Assembly: GCF_031458395.1 (NCBI RefSeq)
Contig: NZ_JAVDYJ010000001.1
Span: 2,418,001 to 2,482,000, forward strand
Direction: 5' to 3'
DNA length: 64,000 nt
Source: Enteractinococcus fodinae
GTDB lineage: Bacteria; Actinomycetota; Actinomycetes; Actinomycetales; Micrococcaceae
Shown here: one piece after another, positions 11,318 to 62,467 of the stretch
Layout of the letters: the number at the start of each line of letters is the position of its first letter
How positions within the stretch are numbered: the first letter of the stretch is position 1
Made by a program: the position numbers and the translations under genes
The notes under the pieces: generated by a model
The model's database searches: none
Seen by the model: the letters and a program-made list of their open reading frames with translations, nothing else
What the model was told of the DNA's origin: nothing

Positions 11318-11318
11318 C

Positions 11319-13114: not shown

Positions 13115-14910
13115 CGGATAACTGCACCTTTCTCGTGTTCCATTCGGTCAAGCCAGACCTGCAGGTCCATATTTTCCGGTGACAGACTGCCCACCGTTGC
13201 ATGAGAGATTTGTTGATGGAACGGGCGTTCAAGATCTTCATTTGCCCCTACGAGCTCTTCGTGGAGTTTTTCGCCTTCACGAAGCCCCGTGTATACGATT
13301 TCGATGTCTTTGCCCGAAATTGCAATCATTCGTTTGGCTATATCTAATATTTTGATTGGCTCCCCCATGTCAAGGATGAGCACTTCCCCTGCACGGCCGA
13401 TCCCGCCAGCTTGAATAACTAGTTGGCACGCTTCAGGAATGGTCATGAAGTAACGAGTTACTTCTGGGTGCGTCACGGTTACTGGTCCGCCGTTTTCTAT
13501 CAATCGCTCAAACGTCGGCAGCATGGAGCCTCGACTACCGATGACGTTGCCAAACCTCACGGACAGATACGGTCTTCCGGTTTCTTTCGCTGCCCACGCG
13601 GTGATCTTCTCTGCCACCCGCTTGGAATGACCAAGCGCACTGGTAGGGTTGGCCGCTTTATCAGTTGATATATTCACAAATGTCTCAACACCACTGGCCA
13701 TGGCGGCTTGAACGACATTGCGTGTCCCTAACACGTTGGTTTTCCAAGCTTCCTCCGGATACTTCTCTAACATGGGCAAGTGTTTGAGCGCCGCAGCATG
13801 AAACACAACTTCGGGTTGATGGGAGGCAAATACTTGGCGCATCAGTTCGGTTTCACGGATATCAGCCAACACAATGTCTTCACCATCGAGCAGGCCATTC
13901 CCCTGAAGCCTGATCTGTGCTTCCTGAAGCGAGGTTTCATCCCGATCAAGCATGATGAGTTCGGTTGGACCAAATTTCGCGAGTTGAACGCACAGCTCAG
14001 AACCAATCGACCCGCCAGCACCTGTCACAAGGACTTTTTTACCGGTGATGAAGCCGGCTATCTCTTCAACGTTAGTATCTACGGAAGTCCGTCCGATGAG
14101 GTCCTCGATAGACACAGATCGGAGATCCTGTACTCCGATCGGGCCTTCCATCAGCCGTTGGACAGTTGGAGTTTTCAAAACGCGTAGACCAGCAGCATTT
14201 CCGGCGTCCGTGAGTTCCCCTAAAAATTCCGGAGAAACGTTGGAAATGGCCACGACGAGCACTTTGGCGCGCGTTTGTTTGGCGACTTGTTCTATGTCAT
14301 CCGAGGTCCCCAACACAGGTACGCCATGTAACCGCAGTCGGCGCTTGGTGATGTCATCATCAATGAGACCTACGGCTCTCAATGGTGAATCTGGATCATT
14401 CATGATGGTGCGCACCGTTATCTCACCAGCTTGTCCTGCACCAACCACAAGCGCGGGGGTCGCGGCGCCGGCAGGTAGCCGAGCTCGGTCGATACTCAAG
14501 CGGTAGAGGAAACGCAGCCCAAACATAATGACTACCGCTAGAGGGAACGCGAGGAGTGCCAAGCTCCGTGGTATTTCAGCTTGGAATCCAGTGAGAAGTA
14601 GGAAGACAGAAAATACCACGCTCGTTAGGAGCGCTGCTAGCGTGACGGTTCGTACTTCGTCCAGGGAGCCGTAGGCGTATTTACCTAAGTAAATGCCCAG
14701 CATTAACCCGACAAGTACAAAGAACCCCGCCATGACGACTGCTAACAGGACGGTGGATAGCCATTCGATGCGCCATGCATCGAACTCGTAGCGCAGAAAT
14801 AATGCAAGGAGCACCGAAACGAACCACGCTGAAGCGTCTGCAACAGCCATCAAAGCAGACTTCCACCTAGCGCGGCGAATACCCGATACATTGAAACGTG
14901 AATCACTCAT
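13111..14910 (-). CDS. pglF: Membrane-bound UDP-GlcNAc 4,6-dehydratase (PglF/CapD-like)
   Basis: This 599-residue protein has four or five N-terminal membrane helices (residues about 18-140), a first Rossmann-like domain ('LVVGAGQAGEITVR'), then a short-chain dehydrogenase-like catalytic domain with 'GKKVLVTGAGGSIGSELC' near residue 290, 'VVFHAAALKHLPMLEKYPEE' and 'NISTDKAANPTSALGHSKR'. The T-D-K triad in place of Y-x3-K is the signature of PglF-type retaining 4,6-dehydratases. It would convert UDP-GlcNAc to the 4-keto-6-deoxy sugar used by the next two enzymes. Start and stop overlap both neighbours by 4 nt. Confidence 0.9.
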   Translation of the reverse strand: MSDSRFNVSGIRRARWKSALMAVADASAWFVSVLLALFLRYEFDAWRIEWLSTVLLAVVMAGFFVLVGLMLGIYLGKYAYGSLDEVRTVTLAALLTSVVFSVFLLLTGFQAEIPRSLALLAFPLAVVIMFGLRFLYRLSIDRARLPAGAATPALVVGAGQAGEITVRTIMNDPDSPLRAVGLIDDDITKRRLRLHGVPVLGTSDDIEQVAKQTRAKVLVVAISNVSPEFLGELTDAGNAAGLRVLKTPTVQRLMEGPIGVQDLRSVSIEDLIGRTSVDTNVEEIAGFITGKKVLVTGAGGSIGSELCVQLAKFGPTELIMLDRDETSLQEAQIRLQGNGLLDGEDIVLADIRETELMRQVFASHQPEVVFHAAALKHLPMLEKYPEEAWKTNVLGTRNVVQAAMASGVETFVNISTDKAANPTSALGHSKRVAEKITAWAAKETGRPYLSVRFGNVIGSRGSMLPTFERLIENGGPVTVTHPEVTRYFMTIPEACQLVIQAGGIGRAGEVLILDMGEPIKILDIAKRMIAISGKDIEIVYTGLREGEKLHEELVGANEDLERPFHQQISHATVGSLSPENMDLQVWLDRMEHEKGAVIR

Positions 14911-15500
14911 ACGGCAGCTCGATTCAGATAAGTAACGATTCCACCTAAGGCACTCACGACCTGGTCCCTAGATTCTTTGTAGGTCTGCTTACTACGTCTG
15001 TAGGGGTCCACGACATCGTCGTCTTCAGGATCCTCGAACGATACAGCCAAACCACGGTTCACAGCCGCGGCTTCGACCAGTGCCTTCATGTTCTCCACGA
15101 GGTTGGCTGCCTCACTGAAAGCAATGTCCTCATCTGGAACGAGCTCAGCAATCCTTGCAAGCTCGCGAAGCGTGAAGGTTCTCCTGAGCGCACGGGGCGA
15201 TAATTTCACTGCTTCGCTACGGTGTTGCCGTTCCATTCCCAGGATGAGATCCGCGCTTTCAACATGCTGCAAGGCAAGCTGCTGAGCTCGATGCTCCTCT
15301 GGTGCTTCGACCCCGAGCTGAGTAGCGATCTCTTGTTGAATCTCGGGCATCTGATGCCCTACCAGTGCTTGGGTTCCTGCGCTGAGTGTTTTGATGGAAG
15401 GCGTATTGATCGATTGGTGCAATAGGAGTTCCGCCAGTGGAGAGCGGCAAACGTTTCCTGTGCAGACGAACAAGATCGTGAATTGCGGAGCGGAGCTCAT
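14907..15500 (-). CDS. Low-molecular-weight protein-tyrosine phosphatase (Wzb-like)
   Basis: This 197-residue protein begins with the P-loop 'LFVCTGNVCRSPLAELLL' (C-x5-R-S) and ends with the general-acid loop 'DPYRRSKQTYKE' (D-P-Y). These define low-molecular-weight PTPases. It overlaps the Wzc-like kinase stop by 4 nt, so it almost certainly dephosphorylates the tyrosine cluster of that kinase and cycles polymerisation and export. An insertion between the two motifs makes it longer than the usual ~150 residues, as is common in actinobacterial members. Confidence 0.9.
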   Translation of the reverse strand: MSSAPQFTILFVCTGNVCRSPLAELLLHQSINTPSIKTLSAGTQALVGHQMPEIQQEIATQLGVEAPEEHRAQQLALQHVESADLILGMERQHRSEAVKLSPRALRRTFTLRELARIAELVPDEDIAFSEAANLVENMKALVEAAAVNRGLAVSFEDPEDDDVVDPYRRSKQTYKESRDQVVSALGGIVTYLNRAAV

Positions 15501-16951
15501 CGTTTGAGTCCCCTAGTTGCTCGTCGCGAGCTCGCTTTCGCCTTGCGAGGCGGGGTGCGGTCTTGGGCAGTGAGAGTGACATCGTCTTCTTCATAGGCAT
15601 ACGAGTAGCTACCGTACATGTAACGGCCCGGTCCTTTGGCTGGCAGTCTCTTCGCCACGACGCCACGTAGTGGTACGTGCGCGGTCTCGAGTGTTTCAAC
15701 TGCTGCTTGCAAGCTTTGCTGATGAGTGGAACCCACGGCCGCTACGAGAATGACACCCTGAGTCTTAGCTCCGATGACCACCGCGTCGGTCACCAAAAGC
15801 ATAGGCGGTGCATCAACGATGACAACGTCCATGCTCTTAGAGAGGATCTCCAGTGTTTGCTGCATAGACTCAGAACCCAGAAGTTCAGAAGGGTTCGGTG
15901 GTACTTGCCCGGCTGGGAGAACATACAGTTCGGTTCGACCCCATCGTTGAAGGACGTCTGACAGGTCTGCTCTTCCGATCAGCACATCCGTTAGACCAAC
16001 GGCACCTTCAATGCCCATGTAGTTAGCGACACGTGGCTTACGTAAGTCGCCATCTACGAGCGCTACGCGCAGTCCGGTTTCAGCAAGTGCTACAGCTAGG
16101 TTCGTCGAAACAGTGGATTTACCTTCCCCAGGTGCTGCACTGGAAATGACGTAGGTCTTCGGTCCTTCGTCGACATCCAAGAACTGCAGGTTAGTGCGCA
16201 AGGTACGGAACGCTTCGGCACGTGGATGCTTGGGGTCGACATGGACGATGATGGGTTTCTTGTGAGCTTGCGGGTCATCAACAATTCGACCAAGGATCGG
16301 GGCATCAGTGATCGCTTCGATATCATCAAGCGAGCGGAGACGGGTATCGAGGACATACCGGAGGATGGCGACACCAACTCCGACAGCAAAGCCAAGTAGG
16401 AGCCCGAGTAGTAGGTTGACTGCGATTCGCGGGCTGACCGGATCGAACGGAGTGGCGGCCGATTGCACGGTGTTGATCTGTACGGGGCTATCGTCTGCGT
16501 CTCCCTGGCGAGATTCGAGCTCTTCTTCCACCAGGGTCTTCAGCTGAGCTCCAACTTCATTGGCGATCTCAGCGGCAAGCTCCGGGTCTTCATCCGTGAC
16601 CGTGATATTGAGCAGCGTCGAGTCAGCCGGGGCCGTAACGGTCACCTGTTCGGCCAGTTGAGCATCGGTCCGGTCGAGTTCTAGCTCTTCAGCAACCGGC
16701 GTCAAGACACTTTCGGTTGTAGCCAGTTCAGCGAAGGTCGCCATATTTTGTCGCGCGAAGTTCGACCCTTGCAGCAGGTCACCAGACGCTTGGGTGTCGG
16801 TTCGAACTGACACGTAAACTTTAGAGTGTGCTTCGTATGCGGGAGTTGTGAGATACGAGAGCGTCGCAGCTACTGCAACTCCGAGGAGTGTACTCCCTAG
16901 GATCAACACCCAATTGGCATACATAATACGCAGATAGTCGCGTAATTCCAC
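15497..16951 (-). CDS. Wzz/Wzc-type polysaccharide co-polymerase and BY-kinase
   Basis: The 484-residue protein combines a Wzz-like chain-length domain with two membrane helices (near residues 15-35 and 180-200) and a cytoplasmic tyrosine kinase domain. Walker A is in 'SSAAPGEGKSTVSTNLAVAL', the A' motif in 'LRVALVDGDLRKP' and Walker B in 'VVIVDAPPMLLVTDAVV'. A Tyr-rich cluster 'GRYMYGSYSYAYEEDD' follows near the C-terminus and is the expected autophosphorylation site. It would control chain length and export. It is the first gene of the minus-strand operon, with the promoter in the 16952-17370 gap opposite the LCP gene. Confidence 0.92.
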   Translation of the reverse strand: MELRDYLRIMYANWVLILGSTLLGVAVAATLSYLTTPAYEAHSKVYVSVRTDTQASGDLLQGSNFARQNMATFAELATTESVLTPVAEELELDRTDAQLAEQVTVTAPADSTLLNITVTDEDPELAAEIANEVGAQLKTLVEEELESRQGDADDSPVQINTVQSAATPFDPVSPRIAVNLLLGLLLGFAVGVGVAILRYVLDTRLRSLDDIEAITDAPILGRIVDDPQAHKKPIIVHVDPKHPRAEAFRTLRTNLQFLDVDEGPKTYVISSAAPGEGKSTVSTNLAVALAETGLRVALVDGDLRKPRVANYMGIEGAVGLTDVLIGRADLSDVLQRWGRTELYVLPAGQVPPNPSELLGSESMQQTLEILSKSMDVVIVDAPPMLLVTDAVVIGAKTQGVILVAAVGSTHQQSLQAAVETLETAHVPLRGVVAKRLPAKGPGRYMYGSYSYAYEEDDVTLTAQDRTPPRKAKASSRRATRGLKR

Positions 16952-17370
16952 GCACTTCTCCCCTACTGAATGGTTCTTCCGGAATCCTCATAGTACTACT
17001 AGGATTTTCAACCAGTTACAAACCGGACTGCATCGACAGGTTCTTCACCCCGAATTCACTAAGGGTTTCAGCACCTGTCATTTGTTCAATCTTTTACTGT
17101 TCCCTATATCACCACATCACTTCACCCCTAGTGAGGTTTATGACGACCTCGTGTGATGCCGGCCAGATAAGAGACGACACAGTTTATGTCTAGCAGTAAA
17201 TGCAGGTGTTATGCCCCTGCCTGAAGCCTCTCACCATGATACTGGCACAAACTATCTGCAATAGCACTTTTACAGTCGATAGTCAGAACTTGACATGCAG
17301 AACCTTCATACCCCTTCGCGGTTTATAGGCCAATTCATCGGAACTGCTAGAACGTTATATAGTATCTCGC
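16952..17370. promoter_or_regulatory. Divergent promoter region, Wzc operon / LCP gene
   Basis: This 419-bp AT-rich spacer lies between divergently transcribed genes. On the plus strand TATAGT (17358-17363) is followed by 7 nt and then the ATG of the LCP gene, with no Shine-Dalgarno sequence. That arrangement is typical of leaderless actinobacterial transcripts. A TTGACA at about 17290-17295 has no -10 at normal spacing. The minus-strand promoter for the kinase operon was not pinned down. Confidence 0.45.
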
Positions 17371-18390
17371 ATGAGTCATAACACCATGGAGATCCTTAAC
17401 GGTGAAGAACGTGCCCCCTCCAAGAAGAAAAAAGCTCTCTTTTGGACTCTGGGTGCGTTCTTAGTCGTTTTGTTGATCGCAGGCGCTATTGTCTGGGCTG
17501 CCCTGTCGAAATTGCAAGATTTCGAAACCATCGAAAGCGCGTTCCCGGATAATTCCCTCCGCCCGGCTGCTTCCGAACCCGCGGAGGGCGAAGACGATGC
17601 GTCGATGAACATTCTGCTGCTCGGCTCCGATTCGAGAGCTGACACCTCGACTCCGGTACTTGATGATATCGGCAACCGTGCTGACACCATCATGGTGGCT
17701 CACATCCCGTCGGATCGTAGCGGTGTGCAGATCATGTCGATCATGCGTGACTCCTGGTTAGAAATCCCTGGCCACGGGCACGCCAAGATCAACGCGGCCA
17801 TGGCTTATGGTGGTGTCCCCCTGATGGTCCAGACCGTTGAAGGCCTCCTCGATCAACGCATTGATCACGTCGCGGTAGTCGATTTCAATGGCTTCCAGAA
17901 TATGACTGACGCTCTTGGCGGCGTGCGAATCAATAACCCCCGTGCGTTTGGTGTCCGTGGCACAGAATTCGCTCAGGGTCCTATCAACCTCAACGGTGAA
18001 GAAGCATTGAAGTTCGTCCGCAGCCGCGACTTCGCAGACGGTGACTACACTCGCGTCGAGAACCAGCAATTATTCATGCGGAGCATGGCTGGTGAGATCC
18101 TGTCACGCGATACTATTACCAACCCGGGCAAACTGAACGACCTGGTGGAAGCGACGACTCCTTATGTGGCCCTCGATGGCGACTTCGGTGCTGGAACCAT
18201 GGTTGGTTTGGGCACCTCAATGTCTTCAGTGCGAGCCAATGATATCACCAGCTTCACGCTGCCCACCGCCGGGTTGGGCACCGAAGGTGGTGGACAATCA
18301 GTTGTCTACGTGGATTGGGATGAACTCGAGGAAGTTCAAGAACGCTTCAAGAATGATGATCTCGCTGATTATCAGCCTGATCCCCGCTAA
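17371..18390 (+). CDS. LytR-CpsA-Psr (LCP) family glycopolymer ligase
   Basis: This 339-residue protein has a short cytoplasmic tail, one membrane helix (about residues 25-46, 'WTLGAFLVVLLIAGAIVWAA') and an extracellular LCP domain. Domain landmarks are 'MNILLLGSDSRAD', 'RADTIMVAHIPSDR', 'IMSIMRDSWLEIPGHGHAKI', 'MVQTVEGLLDQRIDHV' and 'ALKFVRSRDFADGDYTRVE'. These carry the conserved Arg and Asp residues that bind polyprenyl pyrophosphate. LCP proteins attach undecaprenyl-linked polymers to peptidoglycan, so next to a Wzy-dependent locus it is the likely anchor for this polysaccharide. It appears leaderless and is followed by a strong terminator. Confidence 0.93.
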   Translation: MSHNTMEILNGEERAPSKKKKALFWTLGAFLVVLLIAGAIVWAALSKLQDFETIESAFPDNSLRPAASEPAEGEDDASMNILLLGSDSRADTSTPVLDDIGNRADTIMVAHIPSDRSGVQIMSIMRDSWLEIPGHGHAKINAAMAYGGVPLMVQTVEGLLDQRIDHVAVVDFNGFQNMTDALGGVRINNPRAFGVRGTEFAQGPINLNGEEALKFVRSRDFADGDYTRVENQQLFMRSMAGEILSRDTITNPGKLNDLVEATTPYVALDGDFGAGTMVGLGTSMSSVRANDITSFTLPTAGLGTEGGGQSVVYVDWDELEEVQERFKNDDLADYQPDPR

Positions 18391-18417
18391 AAACTTTACG
18401 GCCCTGTAACGGATCAG

Positions 18418-18456
18418 AAATGTGCATCGTCCTTTGGGCGGTGCACATTTTTATTT
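18418..18456 (+). terminator. Intrinsic terminator after LCP gene
   Basis: Perfect 9-bp arms AAATGTGCA (18418-18426) and TGCACATTT (18442-18450) enclose a 15-nt loop and are followed by TTATTT. The hairpin begins 28 bp after the LCP stop. Confidence 0.85.
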
Positions 18457-18578
18457 CACCAGCCCCCTTGTCATCGGCCTTCGTTGCATTCGTTCGGCTA
18501 TTCCCTCAGCTAGTGCGACAACGTAAAGTGACGAGTCCTAGGCCTATTAGAAGCCCAGGTTATGAAAGGAGTAGTGAC

Positions 18579-18872
18579 GTGACTGAGAACGACCCAGAAG
18601 TACTTGGCGATATTGACGGCCCGGATCTAGAACGACCAAAAGACGGCCGCGATGCTCAGCCGCCTGAAGAAGGCTCATCCGATTACCCCGAGACATTAGA
18701 TGCACAAGATCCGCTGCGCAATGACCAAGTGGTGCTCAGCGAAACCGATAGCCCAACCACTGTGACAGGACAAGCTGCAGAACCGTTGGCGGAAGATGAC
18801 TGGGCGCTTGAAGAGCAGCAAGTGCTTGAGGAAGACGAGTTCGAAGAAACGTTCCCCGAGGACACCGACTAA
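18579..18872 (+). CDS. Small acidic hypothetical protein
   Basis: This is a 97-residue protein from GTG 18579, chosen because AAAGGAG (18565-18571) sits 7 nt upstream; a longer frame from 18420 runs through the preceding terminator. It is extremely acidic and low in hydrophobic residues ('EVLGDIDGPDLERP', 'WALEEQQVLEEDEFEE'), with no signal peptide or membrane helix, so it is probably a disordered cytoplasmic protein. I did not recognise a family. It is a single-gene unit bounded by terminators at 18418 and 18891. Confidence 0.65.
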   Translation: MTENDPEVLGDIDGPDLERPKDGRDAQPPEEGSSDYPETLDAQDPLRNDQVVLSETDSPTTVTGQAAEPLAEDDWALEEQQVLEEDEFEETFPEDTD

Positions 18873-18890
18873 GTTTTTAACCCAAACAAG

Positions 18891-18916
18891 TGCGGGCCCA
18901 AATTTCTGGGCCCGCA
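18891..18916. terminator. Bidirectional hairpin between convergent genes
   Basis: TGCGGGCCCA (18891-18900) and TGGGCCCGCA (18907-18916) form a perfect 10-bp stem with a 6-nt loop. It lies between the stop of the acidic protein gene and the stop of the aldo/keto reductase gene. T-rich sequence lies on the left flank (GTTTTTAA), so it would act best as terminator for the minus-strand gene but may serve both. Confidence 0.7.
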
Positions 18917-18935
18917 GTTGCTGTGTCTAGGGAGT

Positions 18936-19880
18936 TTAGAGAAACTTCTGTGAAGCCTCGTCCAGTCGAGCGACATGCTCTGGATAGAGCCGTACGTCGC
19001 TGGCTGCTATAAGTGCGTCAAGCTGTTCGGGGACTCGGGCTGAAGCGATCGGGGCAGTTACATCTTTCGCGAGCAACCATGCCAGCGCGACCGAAGCTGG
19101 CTCGTGATCGAGCTCCTCGGAAATCCCAACCAAGGCGCCCACGAGATCCAGGGCGTCTTCATTGGCGAACTGTGCCAGCTGTCCCGCACGATCCGAACCT
19201 TCAAAGTCTTCCAGTGACTGGTATTTACCGGTCAGTAATCCGGCCGCTAATGAATAGTATGGGAAGACAGCCAGATTGTGCTGCTCTGCGAGCTCACCGT
19301 AGCCATCGGTACCTTCGACGTCGCTGCGGTGGGCCAGGGAGTAGTTCGGCTGGATAGCGGCCGGGACTGTCAGGCCTCCTTCCTGCGCCGCAGCAATCCA
19401 CGCTGCTTGGCGCTCTGGCGAGAGGTTAGACAGCCCAATATGGCGAACCTTCCCGTCTTTGACCAGCGCATCGAAAGTGCGAGCCAGTTGCTGCGGGGAC
19501 TGTGATTCATCGTCGTAGTGGGCGTAGTACAAATCAATGTAGTCAGTCTGCAACCGAGCCAGGGAGGCTTCGACAGCCTCGTTAACGTTTTCGGGTGTGA
19601 GTCCAGGCTGTTCTTCCCAGCCGGCAACCTTCGTTGCTAAGAAGACCTTGTCACGGTTGCCGCGTGCTGCAAAGTAGTTCCCGAGGATAGCTTCGGATTC
19701 GCCACCGCTATTGCCTGGTGCCCATTGTGAGTAGCTATCTGCCGTATCGACATGTGCACCTCCGGCATCCAGAAATGCGTCGAGCACTGCGAAGGTGTCA
19801 TCTTCGCTAGAGGTCCAGCCGAACGTGTTGCCACCGAGTGCTAGTGGCACGTCTGGGTTGATGAGTTGTTTATCAGCCAT
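18936..19880 (-). CDS. Aldo/keto reductase
   Basis: This 314-residue (beta/alpha)8 oxidoreductase has the catalytic tetrad visible: Asp and Tyr in 'HVDTADSYSQWAPG', Lys in 'KVFLATKVAGWEE' and His in 'YYAHYDDESQ'. The NADPH-binding C-terminal part has 'APIASARVPEQLDALI'. The closest pattern is the YghZ/Tas/PdxI-like group of general aldehyde/ketone reductases. The physiological substrate is unknown. The start has AAAGGA 5 nt upstream. It is a single gene, transcribed toward the hairpin at 18891. Confidence 0.9.
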   Translation of the reverse strand: MADKQLINPDVPLALGGNTFGWTSSEDDTFAVLDAFLDAGGAHVDTADSYSQWAPGNSGGESEAILGNYFAARGNRDKVFLATKVAGWEEQPGLTPENVNEAVEASLARLQTDYIDLYYAHYDDESQSPQQLARTFDALVKDGKVRHIGLSNLSPERQAAWIAAAQEGGLTVPAAIQPNYSLAHRSDVEGTDGYGELAEQHNLAVFPYYSLAAGLLTGKYQSLEDFEGSDRAGQLAQFANEDALDLVGALVGISEELDHEPASVALAWLLAKDVTAPIASARVPEQLDALIAASDVRLYPEHVARLDEASQKFL

Positions 19881-21458: not shown

Positions 21459-22286
21459 ATGACCACTTGGTTGATTACTGGCTGCTCAAGCGGCTTCGGC
21501 CGCGCACTTGCCCAGCGTGTTTTAGAGGCCGGGGATAAGGCTGTGATCACGGCACGGAACACTGAGTCTGTGGCTGATCTCGCCGAGGCCTACCCGGATA
21601 CTGCCCTGTCGGTGCCGTTAGACGTTCGCAACGAAGAGCAGATTGAGTCGACGGTCGATGCAGCCCGCCAGCACTTCGGTGCGATAGATGTGCTGGTCAA
21701 TAACGCCGGCTACGGATACCGTGCCGCGGTGGAAGAAGGCGAACCCGAGGCGATCCGCGACTTGTTCGACACGAACTACTTTGGTGCTGTCAACATGATC
21801 AATGCTGTGCTGCCGCTGATGCGCGAGCAGGGCAACGGCATGATCATCAACATCTCGTCTATTGCTGGCCAACGCAGCGCACCCGGATCGGGATACTATG
21901 CCGCATCCAAGGCTGCGCTGGAATCAACCTCCGAAGCGCTACGCCAGGAGGTCGCTCCGTTGGGTATCCGTGTCTCGATTGTCCAGCCCGGCCCCTTCCG
22001 CACGGATTTCTTTAGCCGTTCCCTCAAGCAGGCTGATACTGCACTAGAGGCCTATGCTGAGACCGCCGGGAAGCGTCGAAAAGAAAACGATTCCTCGATA
22101 GATACCAAGCCGGGCGATCCGGACCGTGCTGCCGCTGCCATCATGCAGCTAGCCCAACTGGAAGATCCGCCTATGCGCTTGGTCTTAGGCAAGGCCGCGA
22201 ACAGAGTTGCCGAGACCGACCTAAATCAGCAGCTCGATGATCTGATGGAATGGGAACACATCGGGCTGAACACCGATTTTGCTTAA
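21459..22286 (+). CDS. Short-chain dehydrogenase/reductase
   Basis: This 275-residue classical SDR has 'LITGCSSGFGRALAQ' (the T-G-x3-G-x-G cofactor loop at residue 7), 'VLVNNAGYGY', the catalytic Ser in 'INISSIAGQRSAPG' and 'YYAASKAALES' (Y-x3-K). An Arg after the second strand ('ITARN') suggests NADP(H). The substrate is unknown. Ribosome binding site AGGAAGG lies ahead of the ATG. The stop codon overlaps the stop of the convergent downstream gene in a shared TTAA. Confidence 0.9.
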   Translation: MTTWLITGCSSGFGRALAQRVLEAGDKAVITARNTESVADLAEAYPDTALSVPLDVRNEEQIESTVDAARQHFGAIDVLVNNAGYGYRAAVEEGEPEAIRDLFDTNYFGAVNMINAVLPLMREQGNGMIINISSIAGQRSAPGSGYYAASKAALESTSEALRQEVAPLGIRVSIVQPGPFRTDFFSRSLKQADTALEAYAETAGKRRKENDSSIDTKPGDPDRAAAAIMQLAQLEDPPMRLVLGKAANRVAETDLNQQLDDLMEWEHIGLNTDFA

Positions 22287-23221
22287 CTCTCCGGGGATTC
22301 GAGTTCGAGGGCAGATGCTCTTTCTTGATCAGCTCGTCGCCCCCACATCAGCAGCACTGCCCCGGCGGCTAGCAGAAGAGCCCCGCCTATGAACAGTGTG
22401 CTGGAGATCGAACCGGCTTGGGCCAGACTATGCTCAGTGGTTTCTACTGGCGAGGCAGTAGGTACCACGCCTTGTGGGTGATCCCAGGGAACTGACTCTG
22501 TGAGGAGCTCTCCCCACACTTTCGGGGTAGCGTCTTCCCTGAACGTTCCATCGCCGACATCAAGAATCACCGGTTGCCCAAAGTAATACGTGACGGTCCC
22601 GGAATGTACCCCGGGCTCCTCTGCGGCCTCAGGATCGGTTGGTGCCGATGGCGCTACTCGTTCCGGGCTCTCTGTCGTGCTTGCCGGTGGCGCGGAGACT
22701 TCAGGGTCAGTCAGGCCCATTGGGGCAGTTGGTGTATGAAGTTCCGTGGGATCTTCAGAGCTGATTGCTTCCCAGGGAGGTGGCGGAGTTTTCGGAGCGC
22801 TAGGTTCGCTTGGATGTATGGGCACTGAAAGCTTTGGCGACTCGACCGGGGTAAGGGGTTTCGTGGTTTCGGTAGGGTGCGCTGGATTCTTCGGCGGCAC
22901 TGGAGCGGTGGGTTGTACAGGATCTGTGGGGGTTTTCGGGATCGGAGATTGCTTCGGATCCAACGGGGCTTGAGGGTCTGCTTTGGCTGGCGGATCGATC
23001 GGATCCGTAGGTTTGGGAGCTGTGGGCTCCGCAGACTCTGATGGGGGCGTAGGATCAGCCAGCTCATCATTGCCTACCGTGATGGTCTCCGACGTTTCGG
23101 CGCGAGGTGTAGACGTTTTATCGAGGGAATTTGTGTCATGCTCGGCATACGCTGGGACAGCATGTGCTGCTGCAATCAGCACGCCGATGGCACTCGCAAC
23201 GAGCGGTGAACGGAGCTTCAT
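22283..23221 (-). CDS. Secreted Pro-rich cell-surface protein with variant sortase-like tail
   Basis: This 312-residue protein has a signal peptide ('SAIGVLIAAAHAVPAYA', cleavage after AYA). Residues about 50-190 are dominated by Pro, Thr, Ser, Glu and Lys with repeated P-T/S-x-P units. The C-terminus carries 'LAQAGS', a hydrophobic helix ('LFIGGALLLAAGAVLLMW') and a basic GRRADQER stretch. This has the architecture of a sortase substrate, but the motif LAQAG deviates from LPxTG or LAxTG at the Thr. It may be a poorly sorted or directly membrane-anchored surface protein. It resembles its upstream neighbour in signal peptide and layout, suggesting paralogy. Confidence 0.6.
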   Translation of the reverse strand: MKLRSPLVASAIGVLIAAAHAVPAYAEHDTNSLDKTSTPRAETSETITVGNDELADPTPPSESAEPTAPKPTDPIDPPAKADPQAPLDPKQSPIPKTPTDPVQPTAPVPPKNPAHPTETTKPLTPVESPKLSVPIHPSEPSAPKTPPPPWEAISSEDPTELHTPTAPMGLTDPEVSAPPASTTESPERVAPSAPTDPEAAEEPGVHSGTVTYYFGQPVILDVGDGTFREDATPKVWGELLTESVPWDHPQGVVPTASPVETTEHSLAQAGSISSTLFIGGALLLAAGAVLLMWGRRADQERASALELESPES

Positions 23222-23577: not shown

Positions 23578-24582
23578 TCAGTCTCGTTTGGCGCGTCTCC
23601 CACGAGGCGCTGCCTCCTTAGCACGCAGGCGCTTGGAGACCAGAACGAGTCCGGTAGCCAGTATCAGCACACCGCCGATTGCCAGCGCCGCTGAGCTCGC
23701 TCCGGTTGCGGGCAGTGGACCTTTGTCGGACCGCTCGGCCGACTCAATGCGCTGCTTTTCGCGCTCTGTGTTTTGAGGCTCTTCGTCTTTGGATGCTCTG
23801 TCCTCTGGCTCTGGAGAGTCCTCAGGCTCTGGTGAGCTGTCATCCCGGACTGTGTCCGAGGGTTCTATTGTGGAAATCTCTCGCGGCTCTGGTGGGATGT
23901 CTCGCTGCTCTTCGTTGGCTGCTTGAGCTCCGCCCTGCTCAGCGGGCACGCCCTCAGCTTCTAGCCGGGGTGGACTGTTCGCCTCGAGGGCGTCATCAAG
24001 GACCGTGGGGAACGCTGCAGCTCGTGACTCCTCCCGTGCAGGTGCCGTTTGATCAGCAGAACTCTCATCCTGTGAAGCTGTGCTACTCGTAGAGTTGGAG
24101 CTCTGTGAGACTGATGTCAGGCCGGTTGCAGAACTCCGGCTCTGCGGACTCGGGGTCTCCCCCACTGAGGCATTCCGTGGAGTGATTGCTGCTTCGTCAG
24201 GTAACTGTTCAGCGGGTACTGCAGAGAAGAGTTCTACGGAATCTGTAAGGGGCGTTTCTTCGACCGGCTCGGTCGGCTCGTCAGGCACCACAGTCTCGAC
24301 CTCGACCGGAGCTTCGGCCTGCTCTGTGACACGCTCTGGTTCCGTCTGCTCAGGAGTTGGCGTCACAGTTTCTGCGTCGACTTCGTGGTCGGCCTGCTCC
24401 TCTTCTGCCGGGTCGGTCTCGGGGGCATCCGGCTCGTCGGTGTCTTCGTCCGGTTCGACCTCTATGCTCGCTGTGATGCGAAACGTCACGGGTTCGAGGT
24501 CGTCGGCATGGGCAGGAACGATGCTCGCAGCGGCAATGAGGCTTGCCACTGCGCTAGCAGAAACGACCGGAAGTAATTTCAT
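23578..24582 (-). CDS. LPXTG-anchored acidic cell-surface protein
   Basis: This 334-residue protein has a signal peptide ('SLIAAASIVPAHA') and a long Glu/Pro/Asp/Thr/Ser-rich low-complexity region (residues 30-290, e.g. 'EPDEDTDEPDAPETDPAEEE'). It ends in a canonical sorting signal: 'LPATG', the hydrophobic helix 'ALAIGGVLILATGLVLV' and the basic tail 'KRLRAKEAAPRGRRAKRD'. A housekeeping sortase would link it to peptidoglycan. No folded domain was recognised; it may be a spacer-type or charge-masking protein. The sortase itself is not in the window. It lies between the PAP2-like gene and the Pro-rich protein gene on the same strand. Confidence 0.75.
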   Translation of the reverse strand: MKLLPVVSASAVASLIAAASIVPAHADDLEPVTFRITASIEVEPDEDTDEPDAPETDPAEEEQADHEVDAETVTPTPEQTEPERVTEQAEAPVEVETVVPDEPTEPVEETPLTDSVELFSAVPAEQLPDEAAITPRNASVGETPSPQSRSSATGLTSVSQSSNSTSSTASQDESSADQTAPAREESRAAAFPTVLDDALEANSPPRLEAEGVPAEQGGAQAANEEQRDIPPEPREISTIEPSDTVRDDSSPEPEDSPEPEDRASKDEEPQNTEREKQRIESAERSDKGPLPATGASSAALAIGGVLILATGLVLVSKRLRAKEAAPRGRRAKRD

Positions 24583-55688: not shown

Positions 55689-57050
55689 TTAGAGTTCCGG
55701 GATGACCGCCTGAGCAATGAGGAAGTAAATGATCAGCCCGCTGGCATCCACGAAGGTGGTAATGAAGGGGTTGGAGAACACGGCCGGGTCAACTTTGATG
55801 GCCTTGGCCACCAGCGGCATGATACCGCCCACGCTGGCCGCCATGGTACACACCGACAACAACGTCAATCCGATAATCAATCCGATCTCGGGCTCATAAA
55901 AGAACCCGGCGATCACAAAACCCAACGTCCCCAAGATGAGTCCCAACAGAAATCCAGTGCGGACTTCTCGAGCGAGTACTCGAATCATGTCCCGGGGCTG
56001 GAGGTTATCTAAGGCGATCGCGCGGGTCACGGTGGTTGCGGCCTGGTTGCCGGTGTTCCCACCGGTCCCAATCAGCAATGGTACAAAGAGTGCCAGGACG
56101 GTGACTTGGGCAAGCGCGTCCTCAAAGACTTCCAACACCTGCACGGTCAGCGTCGCGCCAACGGCGAGTACCAGTAGCCAGGTGATGCGGCTGCGTACCA
56201 GTCGTATAATGGGCGTGGAGAGGTAGGGGCGGCGGATCGGCTCGACACCACCCTGACGAGAGACGTCTTGGCTCTCTTCATACTCGAGGATGCGGGCCGC
56301 TTCATCCAGCGTGAAAATTCCAACCAACCGGTGTTCATCATCCACGATCGACAGCGCAAACGTGCCACGCTTACTGGCTCGTCGAGCGACTTCTTCGGCG
56401 CTCTCGGTGACTTCTTCGGTGTGGGTCGGTCGCACCAGTTGTTCGATGGTACTCGATGGGTCGCTGTTCATCAGCGTGCGCAGACCAACCTCACCAAGCA
56501 CCCGGCGCCCCTCATCGACGACAGGTAAGTAATAGATCGTCTCAGCGTCGTTGATGTGTTCCCGCACGCGTTGCATTGCCTCATTGACGGTGAACCACGG
56601 GTGGAGCCGGATGAACCGGGGACTCATGCGTCGACCCACCGCGTCGGAGGGGTAGCCCATGAGTGCTGCGGTTTGGTCTCGCTCGTCAAGGTCCAGACCC
56701 TGCATGAGTTTCGAGGCCACCGTGGCGGGCAGTTCATCGAGCAGCCAGACGCGATCTTCGGGATCCAGATCGACGAAGATTTCGGCGGTTTCTTGATCCT
56801 GCAGGGCTTGGAGTAGATCGCTTTGTGCCGCCGGGCGCATGGCCTCAAAGACTTTGAGCGCCACCTGCTTTTCTAATAGCCGGTAGACAATGGCACGCCG
56901 TCGCCGGTTGAGCCGTGCCAGCAGCCGGATGATTTCCGAGACTTCTAATGCGTTGACCCGGCGAGATATTTCAGCCAATTCGTCCTCGGCGAGGTCATCT
57001 TCGATCCGGTTGAGGCGTTTTGTCAGAGTGGTCTGCTGGGTGCGGGCCAT
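55689..57050 (-). CDS. mgtE: Magnesium transporter MgtE
   Basis: This 453-residue protein has the N domain (residues about 20-130, helical superhelix 'LLARLNRRRRAIVYRLLEKQ'), paired CBS domains ('SPRFIRLHPWFTVNEAMQRV', 'IVDDEHRLVGIFTLDEAARI'), a connecting helix and five C-terminal membrane helices. The pore motif is 'PLLIGTGGNTGNQAATTVTR' and the Mg2+ site region 'DPAVFSNPFITTFVDASGLI'. It forms a Mg2+-gated homodimeric channel. No M-box leader was recognised upstream. Confidence 0.94.
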   Translation of the reverse strand: MARTQQTTLTKRLNRIEDDLAEDELAEISRRVNALEVSEIIRLLARLNRRRRAIVYRLLEKQVALKVFEAMRPAAQSDLLQALQDQETAEIFVDLDPEDRVWLLDELPATVASKLMQGLDLDERDQTAALMGYPSDAVGRRMSPRFIRLHPWFTVNEAMQRVREHINDAETIYYLPVVDEGRRVLGEVGLRTLMNSDPSSTIEQLVRPTHTEEVTESAEEVARRASKRGTFALSIVDDEHRLVGIFTLDEAARILEYEESQDVSRQGGVEPIRRPYLSTPIIRLVRSRITWLLVLAVGATLTVQVLEVFEDALAQVTVLALFVPLLIGTGGNTGNQAATTVTRAIALDNLQPRDMIRVLAREVRTGFLLGLILGTLGFVIAGFFYEPEIGLIIGLTLLSVCTMAASVGGIMPLVAKAIKVDPAVFSNPFITTFVDASGLIIYFLIAQAVIPEL

Positions 57051-57411: not shown

Positions 57412-58971
57412 ATGGACCGGCAAAATCCGCTACAGCGGAACAGTAAAGTGTCGTCACGCAAGGACGATCTAGCGCTCCTAGTCGAAGCGGTTGAAGACGC
57501 TTTGGAGCGCCACGATTACAGCCGGGCCGCAGAACTCATCGAACAAAACCTCGCCGCCACATGGTTTGGCTTTCCAACACATCGAACCGCTGAAATTCTT
57601 GGTCTCATCGCCAGAAATCTCGAACGCCCGCCGCCGCTTCTGGTCGTGACACACAAAATTATGACGGCCGCCAGCCCAGACCTGAGCAACACAGAACCGT
57701 TGATGGAAGCGCTCGATGCGGAAGACCCGGGCCAAATGCTCGCGTTGGCAATGTTTCGCATGGTCGATTACCGCCTCCACGGTCGCACGACTGAGGCCCT
57801 CGAACAGGTTGAGACCGCTGAAGCGAACCTGGCCACACTCCGGAACCAACTGCCCCCGCAGTCTCACTGGTTGCAACATGCTGCGGTCCAAATTGGCAAC
57901 ACCGCGATGCTCGCTGGAGACTTCACGAAAGCACTGTCTTCGTTCATGCGGGCGCAAATGCTGCCGCCGAATCCACGGTTCGCCTTTTTAGAGCGCGAAG
58001 CCATCGTAAAATCGGCCCTGATTCACGCGTGTTTTGGGAACGCTACCACAGCCGATGGGCTGTTGAAGCGCACCGGGCGTATTCAACGGACCTCGAGCTG
58101 GTGCGAAACCCAACTTGATGCCCATGAAGAATTCGTCCGGATCCTCACGTACGCTGGCGACTACGAAGAGGCATTAGAACGGCTCGAAGCCATCAGCCTT
58201 CAGGACATTGGCGAGATGTGGCCGTTCTATATTGTGGCGCTGCATCGAGTCCTCGAGGTTGCGGGACACCATGACGAGCTGGAACACCAACTGGAAATGC
58301 TCGACTCGCTGCCCTTTCCGCGGGTAGACGGCGAGGGTTTTACCGGCAGTGTGCTCCCCCTGAAACGCGCGATGACAGCGCTGCAGTCGGGACGCGGGGC
58401 CGAAGCGTTGAGATTCCTGGAACGAGCCGACCCGCGTCTGACGTACACCAAGCTCACGCAAAGCGCTGCTGACCTCTTTGTCGGCCGGACCCAACAAGCC
58501 ATGGATCAAGCAGTGGCGTTGCGCAAAGAAACTCGTGCCTTTCGGTTGATGGAAATTCGTCGACTGTCGGTATTAGCGGCAGCGCAATACATCGCCGGGG
58601 ATCCAGAGGCCAGTATTCAAACGCTTCGGTGGGTAGCGAGTCTCCCCAGAGGATTGAGCCCTCATGAGCTCGTGCTGTTTAGTGTAGAAATGCGGATGCT
58701 CGGCGAGGAGCAAGTTGAAAACTGGCCTAAAACCCCAGTCGGCAAGGGGATATTTCTACCGGAACTCCCCAAGCCAGGAAAAACGCTGACCGGGCGTGAA
58801 ATTGAGATCCTGACGCTGCTATCCCAGGGTTACACTCGGACTGAGATAGCAGAAAGGCTCTACATCAGCGTTAGTACGGTGAAATCGCAGCTGCGGTCCT
58901 TGTACCGAAAGCTTGACGTGTCGTCGGCTGCGGATGCGATCTTTGAGGGAGAGCGGCGCGGCGTGCTCTGA
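57412..58971 (+). CDS. LuxR-type regulator with TPR-like domain, paralogue 1
   Basis: The 519-residue protein is mostly helical. Residues about 20-440 look like degenerate TPR/helical repeats ('AAVQIGNTAMLAGDFTKALS', 'DEFVRILTYAGDYEEALERL'), resembling the C-terminal half of MalT/LAL regulators but without an N-terminal AAA/STAND ATPase. The C-terminus is a LuxR/NarL HTH: 'LTGREIEILTLLSQGYTRTE' then IAERLYISVSTVKSQL and 'LYRKLDVSSAADAIFEG'. There is no receiver domain. It shares most landmark segments with the gene at 59454. Regulated genes are unknown. Confidence 0.8.
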   Translation: MDRQNPLQRNSKVSSRKDDLALLVEAVEDALERHDYSRAAELIEQNLAATWFGFPTHRTAEILGLIARNLERPPPLLVVTHKIMTAASPDLSNTEPLMEALDAEDPGQMLALAMFRMVDYRLHGRTTEALEQVETAEANLATLRNQLPPQSHWLQHAAVQIGNTAMLAGDFTKALSSFMRAQMLPPNPRFAFLEREAIVKSALIHACFGNATTADGLLKRTGRIQRTSSWCETQLDAHEEFVRILTYAGDYEEALERLEAISLQDIGEMWPFYIVALHRVLEVAGHHDELEHQLEMLDSLPFPRVDGEGFTGSVLPLKRAMTALQSGRGAEALRFLERADPRLTYTKLTQSAADLFVGRTQQAMDQAVALRKETRAFRLMEIRRLSVLAAAQYIAGDPEASIQTLRWVASLPRGLSPHELVLFSVEMRMLGEEQVENWPKTPVGKGIFLPELPKPGKTLTGREIEILTLLSQGYTRTEIAERLYISVSTVKSQLRSLYRKLDVSSAADAIFEGERRGVL

Positions 58972-58994
58972 TAGCATGCACCGTGCAAAATAAA

Positions 58995-59071
58995 TGGCGA
59001 CCCTGACGGGACTTGAACCCGCGACCTCCGCCGTGACAGGGCGGCGCGCTAACCAACTGCGCTACAGGGCC
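58995..59071 (-). tRNA. tRNA-Asp (GUC), copy 1
   Basis: On the minus strand GGCCCTGTAGC begins at 59071, with the anticodon stem-loop CCGCC-CTGTCAC-GGCGG (anticodon GTC), T-loop GGTTCAAGTCC and acceptor CAGGGTC plus discriminator G. The next bases are CCA (58997-58995), so this copy appears to have CCA encoded; without it the gene is 58998-59071. It lies between the two LuxR-type genes, opposite in strand. Confidence 0.96.
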
Positions 59072-59111
59072 TCAGCGATGCGGACATCGCATAAGCCAGT
59101 TCTTGGCTTGT

Positions 59112-59184
59112 ACCCCCAACGGGATTCGAACCCGTGCCGCCGCCGTGAAAGGGCGGTGTCCTAGGCCACTAGACGATGGGGGCG
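59112..59184 (-). tRNA. tRNA-Glu (UUC), copy 1
   Basis: 73 nt on the minus strand from GCCCCCATCG (59184), anticodon loop CCTTTCAC (anticodon TTC), T-loop GGTTCGAATCC and acceptor TGGGGGT with discriminator A. CCA is not encoded. It lies 40 bp downstream of tRNA-Asp copy 1 on the plus-strand map, so Glu is transcribed first on the minus strand. Confidence 0.96.
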
Positions 59185-59453
59185 TATTGTTACGAAGTTT
59201 TTTGACAAGCTTCGAAGCTAGAAAGATAATCTTAGAGGTCGACCGGCGGAGAATCAAATCCTTGCCGTGCTCATAAGACCACATACGCCAGTATGCTCCC
59301 ACGGCTGGGCCTGAAACAGAGTCGCCGTTTTCAAATCAGGACCTACAACGGTCCACCCGGCCTTCCCGACACACCCTCTCGTAGCTGGCGGTTGGCGCAT
59401 AGTATAAACTTCAAATATACATAAATGTAAGGTAAGTCACTAGAGGTAGAACG

Positions 59454-61004
59454 ATGTCTGAACGCGATACCACAGACTACGAGACTTCCCTGCAACAAGA
59501 TGACCTAGCTCAGCACGCTGAAGAAATCGAAACCGCACTCGACGGAGAGAACTTAAATCGCGTGGTTGCACCCCTCGAAAGCGATCTTGCAGGTACCTGG
59601 TTCGGCATACCGCCCGACCGCACCCTAGAAACCATGCGGTTGTTGTTTTGCACTGCATCTAACGACAGCAGACTGTGGCAAATTGCTCGCCGCTTCTTTA
59701 GCGAAAGCCCTTCGGACCAATTTGAGATTCAGGCTTCAGCCACATTTAATCTCGATGACCCACGAGACGTGTATCTTCTGACGATATTGCGACTGGGAAT
59801 CGCCCGATCTCAAGGATGCACGCAACGCGGCCTGGAACAATGCGACCTACTGGAGCAACAACTCGGTCCCATACCGTCACTACGAGCTTCATATGACAGC
59901 TGGGCTTTACACGCTGCGGTGCAAATGGGTATTACTGCCATGCTCGCAGGCCACTTCACTCGAGCACTCACGAACTTCACGCGCGCCCAATTGCACGTAC
60001 AAGTTCCGGAATTTGCTTTCTTCACACGCGACGCACTGACAAAATCAGCGCTCATCCACGCGTGTTTTGGCAACCGCACCACAGCTCGCTCACTAATCCA
60101 CCGGGCAGATAAAATCGCTCGCACTTCCAGCTGGGCAGAAACTCATATCGACGCCCACCGAAATTTTGCGGAAATCATGGTCACCATAGAAGACTATGAC
60201 GCAGCACTCCAAAAGCTTGATGCTCTCAACTTGCGCGATATTGGTGAGATGTGGCCCTTTTACATTCTGGCCGTGCATCGAGTTCTAGAAGCTGGTGGCC
60301 GCCAAGATGAACTCGAGCACCGGATGGAAATATTCGATGACATGTTGTTCCCACGGCACGACGGCGACGGTTTTACGGGCAGTATCATTCCCTTGAAGCG
60401 CGCGGCGATAGCCCTGAAGAACGGCCGGGGTGTAGAAGCTCAAGCTTTCATTGATCGCGCCGACCCGGACCTGACCTACACCAAGCTCTTCCAAGCTGCC
60501 GCCCACGTCTATGCTGGCCGGACTCAGCAGGCGATCCAAGACGTCTCCCGTCTGAGACCAAAAACCCGAGGCTTTCGCTTGATGGAAGTTCGCCGGCTCG
60601 CAATTCTTGCCGCAGCCCAGTATCAAGCCGACGAAACCGAGGACTGCCTCAGCACCCTGGCACGCGCCGCCGAGATACCCCGAGGGCTGGGCCCACTTGA
60701 GGTCCAGTTATTCAGCCCAGAAACACGAGATCTAGCTGCCCAGAAGGTGCCCGCATGGCCTCGAGACAATCAGGAGCCCTCCGTGTTCCTCACCGGGCTG
60801 CCCAAACCTGGTACTGCCCTGACTGAACGCGAAGTCGAAATCATCGAACACCTGGCTGAAGGTCATCCCCGGGCGCTTATGGCAGAAAAGATGTTCATTT
60901 CAGTGAATACACTAAAGACCCATTTGAAGGCTATCTATCGAAAACTCGGGGTGTCTACAGCAGAAGACGCTGTGTTCGGGGCACAGCGTCGGGGTCTGCT
61001 CTAG
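59454..61004 (+). CDS. LuxR-type regulator with TPR-like domain, paralogue 2
   Basis: The 516-residue paralogue of the gene at 57412 shares long blocks: 'SALIHACFGN', 'DIGEMWPFYI', 'DGDGFTGSIIPLKRAAIAL', 'ADPDLTYTKLFQAAA' and 'GRTQQAI'. The C-terminal LuxR HTH is 'LTEREVEIIEHLAEGHPRAL' then MAEKMFISVNTLKTHL and 'IYRKLGVSTAEDAVFGAQRR'. No ATPase or receiver domain is present. The start is ATG 59454 with AGAGGTAG upstream, preceded by a very AT-rich promoter region. The two paralogues sit on either side of a tRNA pair that is itself duplicated. Confidence 0.8.
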   Translation: MSERDTTDYETSLQQDDLAQHAEEIETALDGENLNRVVAPLESDLAGTWFGIPPDRTLETMRLLFCTASNDSRLWQIARRFFSESPSDQFEIQASATFNLDDPRDVYLLTILRLGIARSQGCTQRGLEQCDLLEQQLGPIPSLRASYDSWALHAAVQMGITAMLAGHFTRALTNFTRAQLHVQVPEFAFFTRDALTKSALIHACFGNRTTARSLIHRADKIARTSSWAETHIDAHRNFAEIMVTIEDYDAALQKLDALNLRDIGEMWPFYILAVHRVLEAGGRQDELEHRMEIFDDMLFPRHDGDGFTGSIIPLKRAAIALKNGRGVEAQAFIDRADPDLTYTKLFQAAAHVYAGRTQQAIQDVSRLRPKTRGFRLMEVRRLAILAAAQYQADETEDCLSTLARAAEIPRGLGPLEVQLFSPETRDLAAQKVPAWPRDNQEPSVFLTGLPKPGTALTEREVEIIEHLAEGHPRALMAEKMFISVNTLKTHLKAIYRKLGVSTAEDAVFGAQRRGLL

Positions 61005-61039
61005 ACCCAGCACCGTCTGATGTGCAGTATTAAACTGAA

Positions 61040-61073
61040 GAACCCTCGCGATGTAGAAGCTACGCGAGGGTTC
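61040..61073. terminator. Hairpin terminator, LuxR paralogue 2 / tRNA-Phe
   Basis: GAACCCTCGCG (61040-61050) and CGCGAGGGTTC (61063-61073) form a perfect 11-bp stem. It ends 2 nt from the 3' end of tRNA-Phe (minus strand), where TTCTTCAGTTT follows, and 36 bp after the regulator stop (plus strand), so it can end both. Confidence 0.75.
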
Positions 61074-61075
61074 AG

Positions 61076-61148
61076 TGGTCCCGACCGGCGTCGATCCGGT
61101 GACCTTTCGATTTTCAGTCGAACGCTCTACCAACTGAGCTACAGGACC
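61076..61148 (-). tRNA. tRNA-Phe (GAA)
   Basis: 73 nt on the minus strand: GGTCCTGTAGCTCAG (61148 downward), anticodon loop ACTGAAAATC (anticodon GAA), acceptor CGGGACC with discriminator A. CCA is not encoded. It is followed on the minus strand by the hairpin at 61040-61073, the likely terminator of the Glu-Asp-Phe tRNA transcript. Confidence 0.96.
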
Positions 61149-61208
61149 AAAAGGTATTCAATTGTTTTGGGAAAAAGAGCCCGTCCACTGGACAGGCTCT
61201 CAAATCCG

Positions 61209-61282
61209 CGACCCTGACGGGACTTGAACCCGCGACCTCCGCCGTGACAGGGCGGCGCGCTAACCAACTGCGCTACAGGGCC
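61209..61282 (-). tRNA. tRNA-Asp (GUC), copy 2
   Basis: The mature sequence is the same as copy 1 as far as can be compared by eye (GGCCCTGTAGC start at 61282, anticodon GTC), but the three bases after the discriminator read CGG instead of CCA. It is probably co-transcribed with tRNA-Glu copy 2 and tRNA-Phe on the minus strand. Confidence 0.96.
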
Positions 61283-61324
61283 AAAAGAAATGCAAACATT
61301 TCTCATAGCCATTTTACTGACTTG

Positions 61325-61397
61325 TACCCCCAACGGGATTCGAACCCGTGCCGCCGCCGTGAAAGGGCGGTGTCCTAGGCCACTAGACGATGGGGGC
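61325..61397 (-). tRNA. tRNA-Glu (UUC), copy 2
   Basis: Identical in sequence to copy 1 at 59112-59184 (anticodon TTC), including the flanking CTTGTA. It is the first gene of the minus-strand Glu-Asp-Phe array. Confidence 0.96.
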
Positions 61398-61705
61398 CTG
61401 GTGTTCGCTGAGCTTTTACACTCGTTAGCGCGATCGACCTAGATCATCATAGACCTAAACGATTTTCAAATGCAAATCGCTGTGGAGCCCAACCCCTCTT
61501 CAAAGTCGACCCATTTCCTCTGCATCCCTGCCCGCAGCGCAGCACTAACAACGAGCCAGCTGCTATTGGCGCGGGCAAAACTCCTAGTCAGATACTTTAA
61601 AGAAAAGAGAATTCGCCCAGTCTTTTTTTGATACACCAAGTACAGACAAAACTCATAATCCAGTGTTACTGTGAAGTTCAGCACTCTGAGTTATGGGAGA
61701 TTCTG
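61398..61705. other. Intergenic region, tRNA array / GntR gene
   Basis: There are 308 bp without a gene. It should contain the minus-strand tRNA promoter (AT-rich 61398-61470) and the plus-strand GntR promoter (AT-rich 61590-61680 with a T7 run). No palindromic GntR operator was clearly seen. Confidence 0.4.
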
Positions 61706-62467
61706 ATGGATAAGCCAGTCATGCCAGAGCTTTCACTTGTAAATGACAGCGACGATGATCCGATTCACGCTCACACACCGACGAGGATTGCAGCTGCATT
61801 ACGCGCTCATATCTGCCAAGGTGCATTGAAACCGGGGACCAAACTCTCGGAAGAGACCATCGCGGCGGAATTTGAAGTCTCACGGAACACGCTTCGTGAG
61901 GCTTTTACTGTCCTTGCAGGCGAAGACCTGGTGTACAAGGTGCCGAACCGCGGCGTCTTCGTTATCGACCCTGGACCCCGTGAGGTCCAAGAGATCTATC
62001 AGACCAGAAGGTTCCTGGAACCCTCTGCCATTCTCTGGGGCAAACTCACCCCGGAATTGACCGACACGTTCAATCGCATCGCTGATCGGACGCGTCGAGG
62101 TATCGCTCAAGAGGATCTGGAAGCAATCGTCGAAGCAGACCGCAGCTTCCATGTGGCTGTCGTGGCGCTCGCCAATTCCAGCACCATGAATGAAGCGCTT
62201 GAGCGCCTCCTCACCCAGCTACGTCTGGCATTCCATAGTCTGCAGATCACACCACCCATCCATCAGACCTTCGCCCAACAGAACCTAGCGATCATCAACA
62301 GAATCCTGTCCGGGGAACGCATCGAAGCATCCCGGGGCTTACACCGCTACCTCGGTTTAGCCGAGAAGATGGTCCTGCAACACGCTGCGGCAAATGGTCG
62401 CCCAGTCACGGTTCGCCAGTCCCCCGCAGTGCCTGCGCTCAACGGTCGAAACATGAGTCCGAACTAG
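61706..62467 (+). CDS. GntR family regulator, FCD-type
   Basis: The product of about 253 residues starts at ATG 61706 (GGGAG 7 nt upstream); the frame to TTG 61628 is unsupported. N-terminal winged HTH: 'TPTRIAAALRAHICQGALKP', 'LSEETIAAEFEVSRNTLREA', 'DLVYKVPNRGVFVID'. C-terminal all-helical FCD domain: 'EIYQTRRFLEPSAILWGK', 'EADRSFHVAVVALANS' (D and H metal ligands) and 'QNLAIINRILSGERIEASRG'. Such regulators respond to carboxylic acids or sugar acids. No adjacent target gene is evident. Confidence 0.88.
   Translation: MDKPVMPELSLVNDSDDDPIHAHTPTRIAAALRAHICQGALKPGTKLSEETIAAEFEVSRNTLREAFTVLAGEDLVYKVPNRGVFVIDPGPREVQEIYQTRRFLEPSAILWGKLTPELTDTFNRIADRTRRGIAQEDLEAIVEADRSFHVAVVALANSSTMNEALERLLTQLRLAFHSLQITPPIHQTFAQQNLAIINRILSGERIEASRGLHRYLGLAEKMVLQHAAANGRPVTVRQSPAVPALNGRNMSPN

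Follow-up and report, generated by a model that had tools for sequence, protein, structure and literature searches.

Duplicated LuxR-type regulators and tRNA clusters in Enteractinococcus, with relatives beside giant surface-protein genes

The window, by which we mean the whole stretch of 64,000 nucleotides of Enteractinococcus fodinae DNA that was analysed, contains near its right end two genes for LuxR-type regulators alternating with clusters of tRNA genes on the opposite strand. The positions of the regulators and of the tRNA genes, first given in a sequence-only reading of this DNA, were confirmed by ARAGORN and by the list of open reading frames. The locus is composed as follows.

55689..57050, minus strand: gene for an MgtE-type Mg2+ transporter (Pfam), the left flank of the locus
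57412..58971, plus strand: regulator 1 (REG1), an open reading frame of 519 aa; predicted TPR-like helical superhelix at about residues 19-434 and LuxR/GerE HTH at residues 458-510 (AlphaFold, Pfam)
58995..59071, minus strand: tRNA-Asp(GTC) of cluster 1 (ARAGORN); no tRNA-Phe remains between it and REG1
59110..59183, minus strand: tRNA-Glu(TTC) of cluster 1 (ARAGORN), transcribed away from REG2, with 270 bp of intergenic DNA between the two
59454..61004, plus strand: regulator 2 (REG2), an open reading frame of 516 aa; same architecture as REG1, with the HTH at residues 455-507 (Pfam and relationship to REG1)
61039..61074, minus strand: terminator-like hairpin of the Glu-Asp-Phe cluster, ancestral and here in cluster 2 only
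61075..61148, minus strand: tRNA-Phe(GAA) of cluster 2 (ARAGORN)
61208..61282, minus strand: tRNA-Asp(GTC) of cluster 2 (ARAGORN)
61324..61397, minus strand: tRNA-Glu(TTC) of cluster 2 (ARAGORN), its promoter side orthologous throughout the genus
61628..62467, plus strand: gene for a GntR/FCD regulator (Pfam), the right flank of the locus, conserved in the genus

Comparison of the copies bore out that the two tRNA-Glu genes are identical and that the two tRNA-Asp genes are identical over the mature sequence. The two regulators are diverged yet related, with 47% identity in an end-to-end alignment, and both are intact. This arrangement is far beyond chance, and the unit of regulator and tRNAs recurs in sister species. 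The MgtE gene is also the left flank, with inserted genes, in five other genomes of the genus (G001, G003, G004, G005 and G008). To the right, from 62765 to the window's end at 64000 and onward, lies a gene for a coiled-coil protein that is secreted and has a long Thr/Pro-rich repeat; in the genus loci this gene comes next after the GntR gene wherever the contig extends that far; its orthologue in G005 has a C-terminal NlpC/P60-like domain.

The LuxR/GerE HTH was detected in the two regulators at 48.9 and 43.6 bits, against a Pfam gathering cut-off of 23.5, and was the sole above-threshold Pfam domain in either protein; TPR matches were sub-threshold and confined to REG1. The AlphaFold model of REG1, computed from a 17-sequence alignment, has a mean pLDDT of 88.7 and is all-helical, with a superhelix of paired helices followed by a short linker and the HTH. 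A PDB fold search with this model returned generic TPR and helical-repeat proteins (APC/C subunits, TTC7B, OGT) at TM scores of up to about 0.48 and no specific sensor fold, and a search by sequence gave no relatives of solved structure for the regulators. Neither Pfam nor the model, whose N-terminal part is all-helical, revealed a receiver domain, and neither revealed a STAND/NACHT/AAA-type ATPase. A NarL/FixJ response regulator identity was ruled out since there is no N-terminal receiver, and a LAL/MalT identity since there is no P-loop ATPase; the MalT NCBIfam model gave 37 bits against a cut-off of 537.

Pfam and structure prediction therefore uphold what had been read from the letters, namely a TPR-like N-terminal region and a LuxR HTH in proteins that have neither a receiver nor a STAND ATPase, and the predicted N-terminal superhelix matched no known ATPase or receiver. 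With this predicted architecture, a helical-repeat superhelix and then a LuxR HTH, the regulators can be assigned to the class of TPR plus LuxR-HTH one-component regulators. The same reading had called the architecture unusual, which goes too far: it is uncommon, yet the class has already been catalogued in Actinobacteria, where the available passages of a census count it as rare, with few members per genome (PMC3466318).

Homologues of the regulators were present in 9/9 genomes of the genus and in 0/286 of the other family genomes searched. The full order of regulator, tRNAs, regulator, tRNAs and GntR gene occurs in five genomes, this one (G000), G001, G002, G005 and G007; in two of these (G002 and G005) a GDPD-like gene separates REG1 from the tRNAs. 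G006 has the same order with an insertion before the second cluster, consisting of a third, broken regulator and a gene for a 2016-aa surface protein, so that a segment of 13 kb carrying this gene lies between the clusters. Contig ends interrupt the loci of G003, G004 and G008, the break in G004 coinciding with the tRNA repeat, and the order of the pieces in G004 and G008 was inferred from those ends. Orthologues of REG1 were assigned in G007, G001, G006, G005, G002, G003 and G008, and orthologues of REG2 in the first five of these. In the seven outgroup genomes examined, a single Glu-Asp-Phe cluster stands in other surroundings with no regulator, and the first tRNA-Phe has been lost in the window's genome and in G001. 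From this comparison of clusters across genus and outgroups, the duplicated unit is therefore the regulator with Phe-Asp-Glu.

The segmental duplication proposed earlier is thus well supported, and its arrangement is conserved in sister species instead of lying at unrelated loci; its unit, given as the regulator and a tRNA pair, has to be extended by tRNA-Phe. The unit occurs twice, in direct orientation, is older than the species and is absent from outgroups, as expected of a tandem segmental duplication.

In a maximum-likelihood tree of the regulators, the REG1 copies of G000, G007, G001 and G006 cluster, as do those of G003, G008, G005 and G002, and the REG2 copies of six genomes form one group (support 83/86, not starred). 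Pairing of the two copies from the same genome was rejected for G000 (p 6e-8), G005 (p 5e-89) and G001 (p 1e-5). Since like copies group across species, the duplication predates the species sampled, which supplies the date that a regulator phylogeny had been expected to give. The outgroup branch is too long to place the root of this tree with confidence, and rooting on a Microbacterium MAG was dropped for that reason. The dN/dS ratio is about 0.06-0.13 for both regulators, as estimated from unsaturated orthologue pairs, and both copies are therefore maintained; judged by these substitution patterns, REG1 and REG2 have diverged under purifying selection.

The tRNA clusters have had a different fate. 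Promoter sides of cluster 2 are 81-92% identical between sister species and those of cluster 1 57-87%; inside one genome, the promoter sides of clusters 1 and 2 are 50-57% identical. By these alignments the promoter sides are orthologous by position, and the tRNA interiors have been homogenised by recombination. Both tRNA-Asp genes of G007 bear one shared private change, both tRNA-Phe genes of G006 and G007 have a common acceptor stem, unlike those of G002, G003, G005 and the outgroup, and within G001 the Glu-Asp spacers are 92% alike. The outgroup genus G009 also has the terminator-like hairpin that comes after tRNA-Phe; in the genus studied here it was retained by cluster 2 in G000, G001, G006 and G007 and by cluster 1 in G002 and G005. 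Hairpin switching of this kind, together with homogenisation, is to be expected after recombination between direct-repeat clusters. The duplication is old, and the identity of the tRNAs between copies reflects later conversion and constraint, not recency. The locus provides a clear natural example of tRNA genes kept alike by recombination and of protein genes diverging between them. A decaying cluster copy is present on contig C89 of G004 (L033 10598-10847), where the anticodon loop of a tRNA-Glu has shifted to TCT (Arg according to ARAGORN) and a heavily mutated, broken tRNA-Asp comes next.

A regulator could also have been inserted, twice or once with later copying, into a tRNA array that was already duplicated, which makes two separate events; the sequence-only reading had likewise allowed for a paralogue inserted into a tRNA array, and the two histories are not fully separable. 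The variable segment between the clusters, with 13 kb of surface-protein DNA in one species and a GDPD-like gene in two others, would suit such insertions, as would a hairpin that is held by one cluster only and differs between clades. However, the regulators are paralogues of each other, and behind each lies a convergent tRNA cluster, both clusters being oriented alike. With one cluster and no regulator in the outgroups checked, one tandem duplication explains the locus more simply, and we consider separate insertions rather unlikely. tRNA genes are common integration sites, and the changing content of the interval between species might suggest that a mobile genomic island at tRNA attachment sites brought the regulators in. 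We regard this as highly improbable, and a tRNA-site integrative element was rejected, because the complete intervals of G000, G001, G005, G006 and G007 showed no integrase-like gene and because the repeats are whole multi-gene clusters and not tRNA 3' ends. Transposon-type genes turned up on one contig only, the fragmentary C54 of G008. The plasmid collection gave no match to the regulator family, and in viral contigs the matches were to the HTH only.

Under the tandem duplication that we prefer, the ancestor of the genus would have duplicated a one-component regulator together with its convergent Phe-Asp-Glu cluster. The direct-repeat clusters would have gone on to recombine, staying alike, losing members and reshuffling the genes between them, and the regulators would meanwhile have diverged under purifying selection. 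Between the tRNA clusters of the genus lies a segment of surface-protein genes that varies, and recombination between near-identical clusters, if true, would be a route by which regulator and surface-protein genes between them are gained and lost.

What the regulators do is suggested by their relatives. With a profile restricted to the N-terminal domain, relatives were detected in further families of the order, and a pattern scan added the Microbacterium MAG; these order-wide searches sampled genomes and scored the top few candidates of each. All 10/10 full-length homologues outside the genus (L025, which is the Microbacterium MAG, G648, G463, G323, G557, G470, G353, G306, G379 and G338) adjoin a giant surface-protein gene, a raw count that carries no background rate. 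Seven of the ten come from a single family (f13), which leaves about five independent contexts, counting this genus. The adjacent secreted proteins are about 900 to 2116 aa long, most with DUF7507/DUF11 or SdrD_B/SpaA repeats and LPXTG-type ends; the gene of G648 runs off its contig, that of G353 is split in two frames, and the piece in G323 has no Pfam match and ends in LPQTG. Relative to the regulator, L025 and G648 have the surface gene divergent, G463 has it downstream, and in f13 it is upstream with both genes on one strand. Weak or partial matches to the N-terminal domain in G588, G772 and G801, in larger proteins with no surface genes adjacent, were left out. In G301 (L141), a weak homologue at 7193-8800 lies beside a larger LuxR-type gene and two genes from a giant repeat surface-protein gene at 11308-17000.

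Within the genus, the only SdrD_B gene of G006 and of G008, and the strongest one of G004, adjoins a regulator copy in this locus; six of the nine genomes have no SdrD_B surface gene and retain the regulators. The broken third regulator of G006 (L028 11649-12855) is convergent with the intact 2016-aa SdrD_B/SpaA gene (12978-19028). In G003 (L034 7566-8915), the gene for a secreted protein of 449 aa, with a membrane anchor at its C terminus, stops about 68 bp upstream of REG1.

These surroundings bear on two further readings of function. The linkage of regulators and tRNAs is conserved in the genus, and REG2 is divergent from cluster 1 over 270 bp, from which one could suppose that the regulators control the tRNA clusters or translation capacity. 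Yet conservation on the promoter side of cluster 1 is poor save between closely related species, and the homologues outside the genus, in the regions fetched, stand beside surface-protein genes and not near these tRNAs, which makes such control quite improbable. The regulators may otherwise serve unrelated metabolic targets, with the surface genes elsewhere as bystanders. Species that have no adjacent surface gene do hold both regulators intact, under purifying selection where measured, but the linkage recurs in four other lineages with varied orientations and different kinds of surface protein (SdrD_B/SpaA and DUF7507/DUF11), which bystander inheritance explains poorly, and we would give metabolic targets only a minor share of the probability.

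A giant surface-protein neighbour across the family makes control of surface-protein expression the likeliest role. The regulators belong to a small family of proteins with a TPR superhelix and a LuxR HTH; the superhelix is most likely the sensor of some partner, a protein or a peptide, with the HTH as the DNA-binding part. The gene that accompanies the family elsewhere is that of an adjacent giant sortase-type surface protein. In the window's genome, where surface-protein genes elsewhere were sought by family searches, no SdrD_B gene was found, and one sortase gene was. Because the adjacent surface gene is absent here, any remaining action must be elsewhere, at other promoters, or at the intergenic regions of the locus. 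The likeliest reading is thus that the regulators are probably dedicated to the expression of surface proteins (adhesins) and are orphaned in E. fodinae. No convincing shared operator was found upstream of the regulators, in regions that are poorly conserved and in which only promoter-like fragments recur. Two adjacent small secreted proteins with sortase-type C-terminal anchors, one ending in LPATG, are encoded at 22283-23221 and 23578-24582 of the window and are possible targets in trans.

Taken as a whole, an old duplication followed by conversion, with regulators of surface proteins as its products, is in our judgement the probable explanation, though held with reserve. One may speculate further that an undescribed TPR-LuxR family is dedicated to giant sortase-anchored surface proteins in several families of the order and that the tRNA clusters act as a cassette exchanger, a tentative proposal that we think possible and more doubtful than the preceding one. 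The linkage to surface genes is new here and goes beyond the earlier reading, and a rare LuxR-type class, known mainly from domain counts, gains by it a testable role in the control of giant surface adhesins. In the literature searched, no report of LuxR-TPR regulators beside LPXTG proteins was found, and neither the family nor its surface-gene context nor the tRNA-linked duplication appears to have been described there; the architecture itself is already known.

The giant neighbouring proteins share domains and anchors with MSCRAMM- or pilin-like LPXTG proteins of the SdrD_B/SpaA and DUF11/DUF7507 kinds; unlike in those systems, the likeness lies in neighbour genes only, and the window's genome has no such gene at the locus. 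MalT/LAL regulators also have a helical superhelix before a LuxR HTH, and the HTH of our regulators matches the MalT model weakly, but the regulators are about 520 aa long, against about 900 aa for MalT/LAL, and have no STAND/NACHT ATPase. The assignment of REG2 to a TPR architecture follows its kinship to REG1 and the predicted fold of REG1, not Pfam. The closest likeness is to the TPR plus LuxR-HTH class of Actinobacteria, with its C-terminal LuxR HTH, TPR region, lack of receiver and ATPase, and rarity per genome; whereas the census passages count such proteins only (PMC3466318), the regulator subfamily described here adds the contexts of surface genes and tRNA clusters.
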